Below, in pieces: positions 31,927 to 34,859 of a DNA stretch of 46,061 nt (within the stretch, counting starts at the first letter, position 1; each line of letters starts with the position of its first letter). The notes beneath the pieces were generated by a model that was not told where the DNA came from, did no database searches, and worked only from the letters and a program-made list of their open reading frames with translations. The stretch comes from Gemmatimonadetes bacterium 13_2_20CM_2_65_7 (GTDB lineage: Bacteria; Gemmatimonadota; Gemmatimonadetes; Gemmatimonadales; GWC2-71-9), in assembly GCA_001915025.1 (NCBI GenBank), contig MNDR01000008.1:1-46061 (forward strand), written 5' to 3'. The translations under genes and the position numbers were made by a program.

Positions 31927-33204
31927 ATGACCACGACTGACCAGCCCGCGCGACCCAGTCGCGCGCCGATGTCGGGCCGCGCTATCGTCCAGAGTCAGTT
32001 CGATCGCGCCGCCGACCTGATCAACCTCGAAGCGTACATGCGAAAAATCCTCATGTCGCCGTTCCGCGAGGTGCAGGTCGAGGTCCCGGTGCGGATGGAT
32101 GACGGGCGGATCGAGGTGTTCACCGGCTATCGCATACAGCACAATGGTGCCCGCGGTCCGTGCAAAGGGGGCATTCGCTACCACCCCGAGGCGGATCACG
32201 ACGAAGTGCTCGGGCTCGCGGCGATCATGACGTGGAAGACGGCGCTGATGGATATCCCCTTCGGCGGTGCGAAGGGTGGCGTCACGGTCAATCCCAAGAA
32301 GCTCTCGAAGCTCGAGCTCGAGCGCCTGACCCGCCGGTTCACGCAACGGATCGCGATCGTGCTCGGCCCCTACCGGGATATTCCCGCTCCCGATGTGAAC
32401 ACCAATGCGCAGGTGATGGCCTGGATTCTCGATGAATACTCGAGCCGCCAGGGCTACACCCCCGCGGTGGTGACGGGGAAGCCGGTGGCCCTGGGCGGCT
32501 CTTTGGGGCGCGAGGAAGCGACCGGCCGGGGCGTCATGTACGTGATCCAGGAATACGCGCGCGACTTCGGCATCCCGCTGAAGGGGAGCCGTGTCGTCAT
32601 TCAGGGATTCGGAAATGTGGGCAGCCACCTGGCTCGGTTACTCGATAGCGAAGCGGGCGCCAAGGTCATCGCCGTCAGCGCCGTGGAGGGCGGGATCTAC
32701 AACGACAAGGGGCTCGACATTCCGGGACTGCTCGCACACGTCGCGCAGGGCAAGCCCGTGACCGAATGGACGGGTGGCAAGTCGATCACCAACGACGAAC
32801 TCTGGACGATTCCCTGCGACTGGCTCGTGCCGGCAGCCCTCGGCGGCGTCATTACAAAGGAGTCCAACGCCCGGACGATCGATTGCAAGGTCGTGGTCGA
32901 GGGAGCGAACGAGCCCACCACGCCGACCGCCGATCGCATTCTCGAGGAGCGCGGCATCGCGGTGATTCCCGACTTCCTGGCCAATGCCGGCGGCGTGACC
33001 GTGAGCTACTACGAGTGGGCCCAGAATCTCCAGCAGTACCGGTGGACGCACGAGCAGGTGAATCGCGAGCTGAAGGCGACGATCACGAAGGCGTATCTGT
33101 CCGTGCGGGATTTGGCGAAGCAAAAAGCCGTGACGTTCAGGACGGCCGCGTACGGAATTGCGTTACAGCGCGTTGCCGACGCTGAACGGCTGCGCGGGAA
33201 CTAG
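31927..33204 (+). CDS. gdhA: Glutamate dehydrogenase
   Basis: Hexameric-type enzyme interconverting glutamate and 2-oxoglutarate plus ammonia. Substrate motif GPCKGGIRYHPEADHDEVLG, catalytic Lys in MDIPFGGAKGGVTVNPKKL, then AGGSxGRxxATGRG-type segment (VALGGSLGREEATGRGVMY) and the Rossmann motif VVIQGFGNVGSHLARLL, ending with IPDFLANAGGVTVSYYEW. 425 residues is normal. After the Rossmann turn the strand ends in V-I-A-V-S, without an acidic residue at the expected place, so NAD versus NADP preference is unclear. It may channel nitrogen from the peptide-degradation genes nearby (inference). Confidence 0.96.
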   Translation: MTTTDQPARPSRAPMSGRAIVQSQFDRAADLINLEAYMRKILMSPFREVQVEVPVRMDDGRIEVFTGYRIQHNGARGPCKGGIRYHPEADHDEVLGLAAIMTWKTALMDIPFGGAKGGVTVNPKKLSKLELERLTRRFTQRIAIVLGPYRDIPAPDVNTNAQVMAWILDEYSSRQGYTPAVVTGKPVALGGSLGREEATGRGVMYVIQEYARDFGIPLKGSRVVIQGFGNVGSHLARLLDSEAGAKVIAVSAVEGGIYNDKGLDIPGLLAHVAQGKPVTEWTGGKSITNDELWTIPCDWLVPAALGGVITKESNARTIDCKVVVEGANEPTTPTADRILEERGIAVIPDFLANAGGVTVSYYEWAQNLQQYRWTHEQVNRELKATITKAYLSVRDLAKQKAVTFRTAAYGIALQRVADAERLRGN

Positions 33205-33266
33205 GGCGGTCAAGAAGCAACTGCGGCGGTCGGGCGGTCAAATTGCAACGGCGACGGTCAGGTCCT
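33205..33266 (+). repeat. Left flank of four-helix-bundle cassette: two ~28-bp repeat units
   Basis: Two imperfect copies of a unit resembling CGGTCAA-n-GCAA-n-GGCGGTC: the first is around 33207-33233 and the second around 33235-33262. They begin immediately after the gdhA stop codon. Inverted copies lie at 33672-33735, beyond the gene. Confidence 0.7.
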
Positions 33267-33269
33267 AGA

Positions 33270-33620
33270 TCAGCTCAAGGATTTGCATAAGTGCCAGGTC
33301 AGCCTGCTCGCTTCAGAGCGAAGACGATCAAGTGCACGCCATTCCTCCAATGTAAGGTACTCCAGCCTCTTCGAGACGTGCAGCGTGTACGCTACCTCCG
33401 ATAACGATCCTATGCTGATATCGAGGTAACGACGAAATTCCCGCGAACCGCGCTTGGCAGATCCTTCCGCGATGTTTGCCGCAGAACTGAAGGCCGCACG
33501 TCGAGCTTGAGATGTCAATCCGTACAACTCATGACGTGGGAATTTCTCCGTGGCCTTGTAAACCGCGACTGTGAGGTCGTCACAAGCCTTCCAAGCGTGG
33601 AGCCGTTCGTACGGCATCAT
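33270..33620 (-). CDS. Four-helix bundle protein (23S rRNA intervening-sequence protein family)
   Basis: 116 residues matching the S23/four-helix-bundle family: M-x-x-Y-E-R-L-H-A-W-K-A-C, KFPRHELYGLTSQARRAAFS, SAANIAEGSAKRGSREFRRY and LDISIGSLSEVAYTLHVSKRL. The family is named for proteins in 23S rRNA insertions, but most members are scattered in genomes with no known function. Two 60-base blocks that I counted are about 53% G+C, clearly lower than the neighbouring genes, and the gene sits between inverted repeat pairs. Both point to horizontal acquisition as a small cassette. Confidence 0.93.
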   Translation of the reverse strand: MMPYERLHAWKACDDLTVAVYKATEKFPRHELYGLTSQARRAAFSSAANIAEGSAKRGSREFRRYLDISIGSLSEVAYTLHVSKRLEYLTLEEWRALDRLRSEASRLTWHLCKSLS

Positions 33621-33671
33621 GCTGAAGTCTGGACTTGGACTCGCGGAATTACGTATCCATTCGTTGCGGGC

Positions 33672-33735
33672 TGTACCGTCCGACCGCCGCCGTAGTCTCT
33701 TGACCGCCTCGACCGCCGCCTTTGCAGTTTGACCT
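33672..33735 (-). repeat. Right flank of four-helix-bundle cassette: two inverted repeat units
   Basis: Read on the minus strand this holds GGTCAAACTGCAAAGGCGGCGGTCG and then CGGTCAAGAGACTACGGCGG followed by CGGTCGGACGGT, near copies of the units at 33205-33266 in inverted orientation. The region between here and the four-helix gene start (33621-33671) holds nothing else that I recognise. Confidence 0.7.
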
Positions 33736-33740
33736 CCCGA

Positions 33741-34859
33741 TTATTCCACCTTCATCCCCGGGCGCGAATAAAGCGCCCGATATGGGTCTCGATCCGGCTG
33801 CGTAAACACTCGAATCTGAATCGCCCGAATCGTCTCCGAGATGTCCGCGTTGTTCTGTAGATAAATCTCGTCAAACAAGTTCAAATCCATCCGATACAAT
33901 CGCTCGGCAATCACGACCGCGTTGTTGAGCGGCGCCTGCGCGAACCAACGCCAATCGTATGTCTCCAGCGACTGGCCCGTCGGTCCCTTGAACTGATCAC
34001 GGGCCCAGCCGAACAGCGCGGCGCGCACCTGTGCCAATTTCTCGCCGCTCAACGGCTCCGCGTAGGCCGAATCAAGGCGCCGCGCGAGCTCCGCATAGAA
34101 AACGTCCAGCGTGCGCTCATCGCGCCAGCGCGCCGCCGCGCGACGCGCATCCAGCGTGTCGTGGCGCGAGCGAAAGAACGCCTCCGCGCCGCGATAGCCG
34201 ACGAAGCTCGCGAAGCTCTCATTGAACGGCGTCTGGCTCTTCACATACAGCGTGTTGTGCGCCAGCTCGTGCACCACCGTCGCGACCAGCTCCATCGTGT
34301 CCCGGCTCATCGCGGTCGAGAACAGCGGATCGCTCAGATAGCCGAGCGTCGAGAACGCACCGGAAGGACGGAGAAACACGTCGAGCCCCTGCTGCCCGAA
34401 CTGCTCCGCTTCGCGCCGGGCGCGTGCCGCACTGAAGAAGCCCTTGTAGGGAACCACGCCGACGATCGGGTACGTCCACGTGATCTCGCGCAGCTTGTCG
34501 CGACGACTGGCCGACAACACGAGCAGCAGCGTATCCCGCCCCACGTCCACATACGTCGTGTAGGTCTTCCCGACGACGAGTCCCAGCGAATCGGCCGCGA
34601 AGGCGCGCGCCGCGAGGACGAGCTTCAGACGCTGGCGCAGCGGCGCCGGCGTCGCGGAATCGGCGATCAACTTCTCGATCGAGCGGCGCCGCATCATCAG
34701 GCGGGCTTCTTCGATGCCGGCTCTGGCGATATAGCGCGCATCGGCACTGAAGAGCAACACGAGGATGATGCCGGCAACGGCGGCACCGAGGGCGATGACG
34801 ACAATACGCTTCAGGAGGCGGCCCCAGCGGGGTCGAGCCCGCTCGGTTAGGGCGTCCAC
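33741..34859 (-). CDS. Predicted aminopeptidase (COG4324-like), membrane-anchored
   Basis: 372 residues. An N-terminal membrane segment (RIVVIALGAAVAGIILVLLF) leads into the family's R-Y-I-x-x-A-G-I-E-E-A start. The zinc-binding motif is VVHELAHNTLYV near residue 195, followed by FNESFASFVGYRGAEAFF with the third ligand Glu, as in this family of putative metallo-aminopeptidases. Upstream V-x-P-Y-K-G-F-F and D-V-F-L-R-P-S-G-A-F-S-T-L-G-Y are also typical. GTG start at 34859, overlapping the end of the PorV-like gene by 13 nt, so it is the third gene of an overlapping protease/outer-membrane operon. Confidence 0.88.
   Translation of the reverse strand: MDALTERARPRWGRLLKRIVVIALGAAVAGIILVLLFSADARYIARAGIEEARLMMRRRSIEKLIADSATPAPLRQRLKLVLAARAFAADSLGLVVGKTYTTYVDVGRDTLLLVLSASRRDKLREITWTYPIVGVVPYKGFFSAARARREAEQFGQQGLDVFLRPSGAFSTLGYLSDPLFSTAMSRDTMELVATVVHELAHNTLYVKSQTPFNESFASFVGYRGAEAFFRSRHDTLDARRAAARWRDERTLDVFYAELARRLDSAYAEPLSGEKLAQVRAALFGWARDQFKGPTGQSLETYDWRWFAQAPLNNAVVIAERLYRMDLNLFDEIYLQNNADISETIRAIQIRVFTQPDRDPYRALYSRPGMKVE

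Follow-up and report, generated by a model that had tools for sequence, protein, structure and literature searches.

A four-helix-bundle gene between inverted tandem-repeat arms downstream of gdhA, and similar arms around related genes in other genomes

A 46,061-nt stretch of contig MNDR01000008.1 of Gemmatimonadetes bacterium 13_2_20CM_2_65_7 (hereafter the window) contains, between gdhA and a convergent gene, a cassette of ~530 bp in which a gene of the PF05635 family of four-helix-bundle proteins lies between inverted pairs of ~28-bp units. An earlier note on this DNA had described the cassette as a small element of lower G+C inserted directly after the gdhA stop codon. The length and the inverted pairs were borne out: the inverted-flank score of the cassette was 22, while the highest score among 1,939 randomly chosen places of the window was 15, so that 0 of them reached 16. 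The left array begins at the base directly 3' of the gdhA stop codon, as had been claimed, and the convergent neighbour ends at 33741, next to the right arm (Table 1). The two units of the left arm are 82% identical to each other and those of the right arm 75%, and the left pair and the inverted right pair have a 34-nt arm match that is 85% complementary. The 28-nt unit is a composite, in which GGCGGTC occurs twice, spaced 20 and 8 nt. The G+C content was 54.4% in the gene, 57.0% in the cassette, 66.7% in the arms and 65.2% in the window. The low value, which the note had put at about 53%, therefore holds for the core and not for the arms. When the minus strand of the cassette was folded as RNA, the z score was -6.65, and 0 of 100 shuffles were equally stable.

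Table 1. Position, strand and basis of the features at the gdhA site (coordinates of the window).
Feature	Position	Strand	Basis
Host gene gdhA, upstream of the insertion	31927..33204	+	open reading frame; name from the earlier note
Left arm, unit 1 (GGCGGTC...GGCGGTC)	33205-33231 (33204-33231 in the repeat comparison)	+	repeat comparison
Left arm, unit 2	33232-33259	+	repeat comparison
Four-helix-bundle protein gene, 116 aa (PF05635, TIGR02436)	33270-33620	-	profile matches
Right arm, inner unit, inverted relative to the left arm	33681-33708	-	repeat comparison
Right arm, outer unit, inverted relative to the left arm	33710-33737	-	repeat comparison
Convergent host gene, downstream of the cassette	33741..34859	-	open reading frame

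The protein of the cassette matched PF05635 with an E value of 3.8e-28 (98.2 bits against a curated cut-off of 33.8) and TIGR02436 with an E value of 5.7e-28 (97.3 bits against 24). Its AlphaFold2 model consists of four helices, with a predicted local distance difference test (pLDDT) value of 97.4, and the closest structure in the PDB was 2gsc (XCC0516 of Xanthomonas campestris), with a template modelling (TM) score of 0.94. Structures of Avd and of the ribonucleoprotein of diversity-generating retroelements (DGRs) ranked lower (4dwl and 8ub7, TM about 0.8, E 0.03-0.3).

The 2.68 Mb of the source genome (G000) were scanned with a pattern for the window unit. There were 6 matches, compared with 0 for the pattern control: two at the cassette and four at three other places, namely a tandem pair on contig C18 and singles on C23 and C46. 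The PF05635 profile scan gave no family match on these three contigs. With six matches, none of them beside another family gene, the unit is too rare for a common intergenic repeat and does not mark other four-helix genes. The earlier note had raised the possibility that copies of the unit flank other such genes; the same unit does recur at three gene-less places, while the other four-helix genes of this genome each have inverted arms of their own, unlike the window unit. PF05635 gave seven matches at six loci, and inverted arms were present at all six with scores of at least 21.5. Five of the six are tandem arrays, each with another unit (GGGGCCT-type, GCAACAGAC, GGGGGAA, GACGGTAAGG-type and the composite unit of the window), and the sixth, on C63, has a diverged inverted repeat of 67 bp. 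At two loci the family gene is broken, being in two pieces on C87 and truncated on C101, while the arms are intact.

To examine the same arrangement in other genomes, one flank of 300 bp was aligned, locally and under strict scoring, with the reverse complement of the opposite flank, and the threshold was set at 16. An earlier, permissive gap cost had been uninformative (observed median 30, control median 18), and the stricter scoring was used instead. The PF05635 family occurs in 159 of 298 Gemmatimonadota genomes, at most 14 times in one genome, and the genus of the window has 3-14 matches per genome. Sixty of these loci were selected, approximately by score; places at contig ends and some others were dropped before their flanks had been inspected, and the sample therefore leans to strong family members. 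Fifty-two of the 60 loci reached the threshold, compared with 18 of 2,400 random windows and 15 of 1,527 other open reading frames of the same stretches. The best self-period of the 52 arm pairs was 7 in 29, 14 in 8, 21 in 6 and 28 in 2, that is, one of these values in 45 of 52, and the units were mostly heptamers. The left arm, read inward, was purine-rich in 38 of the 52.

A multi-phylum set of 80 loci came from a single search with an XCC0516-led profile and included Proteobacteria, Bacteroidota, Acidobacteriota, Planctomycetota, candidate phyla, Clostridia and Methanophagales archaea. At least 16 was scored by 48 of the 80 loci (control 13/2,400) and at least 14 by 58 (control 43/2,400); one of three Methanophagales loci passed 16. 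No ribosomal RNA (rRNA) match was found in the 20 of these 80 loci tested, and a 23S rRNA location of the relatives was rejected. For plasmids, 10 of 46 records were taken (nine cyanobacterial, one from Azospirillum), and 8 of the 10 loci reached 16 and 9 reached 14. In Xanthomonadaceae, 40 loci were chosen, 20 from genomes with GGGAATC doublets and 20 from genomes without, and 34 of them reached 16. The arms of the XCC0516 homologue of X. vasicola (L179) consist of the GGGAATC heptamer itself. The cassette of the window is one case of a general arrangement.

In three cyanobacterial plasmid loci (L169, L172, L175), armed four-helix genes lie between cas6 and cas4 or between cas10/cmr2 and cmr3. 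Eighteen genes of the PF05635 family have been noted in cas loci (PMC3936711), and the family is named in a figure legend on associations with clustered regularly interspaced short palindromic repeats (CRISPR; PMC10910872). Armed elements between cas genes may explain this reported association. In the Nostoc edaphicum plasmid pNe_5 (L173), an element lies on the opposite strand between the genes of ribonucleotide reductase beta and alpha. An S-adenosylhomocysteine (SAH) riboswitch was seen close to a four-helix-bundle gene (L199:1360-1436). A conserved motif inside the arms proved weak. The pattern AA[ACG].?GCG was little above shuffling in the Gemmatimonadota and multi-phylum sets; it was found at 14 of 40 hairpin inner ends compared with 2.3 by shuffling, but also at 10 of 40 on the reverse strand, and in Xanthomonadaceae at 13 of 68 compared with 5.1.

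The region downstream of gdhA was read at 20 places among relatives. Five sites are filled (G000, G002, G195, G076 and G077) and nine are empty; at these the genes, as aligned, are 3-16 bp apart, and there are no arms. G036 and G179 have inserts of 34-35 bp, which are possible scars, G312 and G111 have a gene-less hairpin of inverted heptamers whose short core is related, G157 has another insert, and one further place is at a contig end. In the gdhA tree, filled and empty sites form the sister pairs G195/G138 (95/98), G002/G300 (100/99), G077/G114 (100/99) and G000/G256 (84/89), and where G002 has an insert of 618 bp, G138 has 5 bp. The empty sites are thus clean, as expected of the discrete cassette that the earlier note had described. 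Moreover, the two findings which that note had named as fatal to its proposal, a common intergenic repeat and a gene conserved at this site across the phylum, were not obtained, since the unit is rare and the gene is not fixed at the site. The insert of G195 measures 388 nt compared with 537-615 nt. Together with the broken genes between intact arms, this suggests how a hairpin that bears the gene could plausibly become a gene-less one. As for the two hairpins at the gdhA site of G312 and G111 (L067 and L068), their heptamers differ (GCGGAAT and GCGGATT), and the related core of ~45 nt contains GGTTCGA-like motifs. A REP-type hairpin of 87 bp (L075:3309-3395; REP, repetitive extragenic palindrome) is present in G002 and cleanly absent in G138.

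The locus on C8 of the source genome carries the same element in G000 and G002, and a relative of it in G022. In G298, 37 nt of flank plus left arm are the same as in G022 but are followed by a different four-helix protein, which shows that a core can be replaced next to a retained arm. In G299 the locus is occupied by a short array, and in G256 it is nearly empty. At several other positions, elements of different subfamilies have homologous flanks. Over 2.3 kb around the C8 element (L012/L368; G000:C8, G002:C12), G000 and G002 are 98% identical, compared with about 78-82% in the gdhA region, which may reflect recent transfer or assembly mixing.

The relation between arm and protein was evaluated with 51 loci, using pairs from different genomes without homologous flanks. 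Arm similarity rose with protein identity (r 0.267, 1,204 pairs), and 0 of 2,000 permutations gave a value as high. Arms and protein are thus co-inherited in part.

Gene-less hairpins with similar arms were also found. Another 14 inverted heptamer pairs lie near the 60 Gemmatimonadota loci, and in 13 of them the loop measures 8-71 bp. Doublets of the unit GTGAYTA in genus g44 number 342 in G047 and 280 in G113. Among the matches listed, the doublets are nearly all GTGACTA in G047 and mostly GTGATTA in G113, and the arms of a hairpin orthologous between the two genomes show the same difference. In 20 gene-less hairpins (from G113, G047 and G321), the outer ends of the arrays prefer a phase, with an offset of 0 or 1 in 21 of 24 and 12 of 16. 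At L085:2035-2476, inverted GTGACTA arrays lie either side of a gene in a 381-bp loop. No recognisable four-helix frame was found in this loop, and its frame presumably resembles translation factor IF-1.

At the genome level, PF05635 is present in 84 of 198 genomes of the family of X. vasicola (Xanthomonadaceae). Two or more GGGAATC doublets were found in 45 of these 84 genomes compared with 11 of the 114 without the gene, phylogeny not being corrected for, and the hit totals were 2,810 and 247, respectively. In Gemmatimonadota, heptamer arrays were surveyed in 30 gene-less and 29 gene-rich stretches. There were 20 arrays in 504 kb of ten gene-rich genomes and 1 in 571 kb of nine gene-less genomes, again without correction for phylogeny.

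Several known systems resemble the cassette in part. Intervening sequences (IVSs) of 23S rRNA encode a protein of this family within a hairpin whose ends are inverted repeats, and the cassette likewise has its S23p-family reading frame enclosed by a stem of terminal inverted repeats. In Coxiella, the IVS has a stem of 28 bp at its ends and an S23p reading frame preceded by tandem heptamers (GACAGAT), and it is excised by RNase III (PMC4990558). In contrast to the IVSs, the cassette lies between two protein-coding genes and not in a 23S rRNA helix, its arms are arrays of varying sequence, and it has gene-less relatives. Terminal inverted repeats are also a feature of miniature inverted-repeat transposable elements (MITEs) and other transposon passengers. 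REPINs (hairpins formed by REPs) and their REP-associated tyrosine transposases (RAYTs) likewise combine one gene having inverted repeats with dispersed gene-free hairpins of related repeats (PMC3116915), a dispersal that may have a parallel in the three further places with the window unit in the source genome and in the many hairpins of other genomes. However, the sole gene of the cassette is the PF05635 gene and not a Y1 tyrosine transposase, the arms are tandem arrays rather than REP palindromes, and the loops are unrelated.

The heptamers of Xanthomonas and Nostoc (GGGAATC, GGGGAYT) and the short tandemly repeated repetitive (STRR) sequences of cyanobacteria are probably the same kind of unit. 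The unit of STRRs has 7 nt, as in most relatives, and that of the window 28 nt with GGCGGTC twice. GGGAATC is abundant in Xanthomonas, often in inverted pairs, of which X. campestris has 70 (Rehm et al., PMC4692102), and a repeat-binding protein has been suggested as the possible mobile part of a TAACTGA heptamer network (PMC4679880). In the parts of this literature available to us, these repeats are not linked to a four-helix-bundle gene. Likewise, no link between the PF05635 family and flanking heptamer arrays outside rRNA was found in a search of partial texts that covered open-access papers, few subscription papers and no preprints. Avd has the four-helix-bundle fold in common with the cassette protein, and no reverse transcriptase (RT) was found here.

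On balance, we favour the reading that the cassette is an element like the 23S rRNA IVS but outside rRNA, with the repeat arrays as its own ends and the gene-less hairpins as its relatives. A gene of the S23/IVP family, with an Avd-like fold, occupies the loop of a long hairpin between protein genes, and the inverted arrays of a short tandem unit form the hairpin arms and would also be the ends of the element, which would at times be cut down to a bare hairpin. The structure, its recurrence in many groups, its presence or clean absence in sister species, the gene-less hairpins and the joint inheritance of arms and protein are observations, and movement and an action of the protein on the arms are inferred. 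The paired arms in the transcript may be a substrate of RNase III, as for IVSs, and insertion between genes would therefore be tolerated. The four-helix protein, presumably a pentamer like XCC0516, may recognise its own hairpin arms and promote the spread or upkeep of hairpins in trans, gene-less ones included, and the cassette is presumably mobile. That there is a widespread bacterial and archaeal class of such hairpins, REPIN-RAYT-like and with no recognisable transposase, in which a pentameric four-helix protein acts in trans on heptamer-array hairpins, is a possibility about which we are more doubtful than convinced.

Several results weigh against an IVS-like mobile element. Scoring arms are absent at 8 of the 60 Gemmatimonadota loci. 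The arms are no more alike within one element than between elements of one heptamer family (0.73 and 0.75, respectively, p 0.69), and arm-arm homogenisation within an element is not supported. The 20 gene-less hairpins have no sequence common to their loops, and are therefore not simple copies. No transposition of the cassette was seen in the genome comparisons, and no target-site duplication was seen by eye when the gdhA site was compared with empty sites. The five gdhA-site proteins form one clade (support 100/98), and the site pattern may therefore be one old insertion with repeated loss. Three histories fit this pattern, namely an old insertion that was cleanly lost more than once, an exchange with empty alleles, or the arrival of one subfamily on more than one occasion. 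The genome-level association tests ignore phylogeny, the 20 heptamer arrays sit in 4 of the ten gene-rich genomes while 6 have none in the stretches read, and eleven gene-less Xanthomonadaceae genomes have at least 5 GGGAATC hits. In addition, most Xanthomonas repeats are at the same place in two species (Rehm et al., PMC4692102), which speaks against rapid movement.

The arms could instead be host sequence, the hairpins having come first and four-helix cassettes inserting into or exchanging within their loops, and the location of IVSs at the tips of rRNA helices may be a parallel. The different genes behind a common flank and left arm in G022 and G298, the many gene-less hairpins with unrelated loops, and the homologous flanks of different subfamilies, which suggest hot spots, agree with this order of events. 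However, the empty gdhA sites are without any arms, and arm sequence follows the protein across unrelated loci, and we regard this order as unlikely, though deserving of attention. It is improbable that the gene is an ordinary host gene and no mobile element, with heptamer arrays built by polymerase slippage and selection for an RNA stem. Such slippage has been published as the origin of heptamers (quoted in PMC4679880 and PMC4692102), and the repeats keep their position in Xanthomonas (PMC4692102), but the gdhA site is patchily occupied with clean empty sites, the genus of the window has several family matches in every genome (3-14), and the other reading frames of the same stretches are without such arms (15/1,527).

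The earlier note had suggested mobilisation by an enzyme acting in trans, and this was not supported for either enzyme considered. Y1 transposases occur in 77 genomes, 62 of which have the PF05635 family (p 1.6e-8, phylogeny not corrected for), and there are two Y1/RAYT genes in the source genome (L347, G000:C38:15906-21438). However, the repeats around these two genes are palindromic and are not heptamer arrays, and among 20 regions (21 genes) picked from the 77 genomes, tandem-heptamer arms were found at 0 of 21 Y1 genes and REP-type palindromes at many. Moreover, both Y1 and RT are absent from 9 of the 22 genomes that have at least nine family matches, and G047 (96% complete), with its 342 GTGAYTA doublets, does not belong to the 77 Y1 genomes. 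Y1/RAYT was therefore rejected as a necessary partner, and the RAYT-REPIN and four-helix hairpin systems appear to be separate. A REPIN-like passenger moved by Y1/RAYT transposases is thus a very improbable explanation. Copying by an RT, with the Avd-like protein as a putative cofactor, we likewise consider highly unlikely. The fold does resemble Avd and the DGR ribonucleoprotein (4dwl, 8ub7), but RVT_1 (PF00078) was found in 50 of 298 Gemmatimonadota genomes without association (24 of the 50 have the PF05635 family, p 0.44), and none was found in the source genome (82% complete) or in five of six congeners. RT was therefore rejected as a partner.

The arrangement described here joins two puzzles, namely what function a very common protein family has and why many bacteria have heptamer tandem repeats in excess. 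If the proposed hairpin class is real, it would explain the heptameric repeats between genes, the 23S rRNA IVSs and the recurrence of the family in cas loci. The presence of the family between cas genes would then have a simple reason, insertion between genes, rather than a function in CRISPR.
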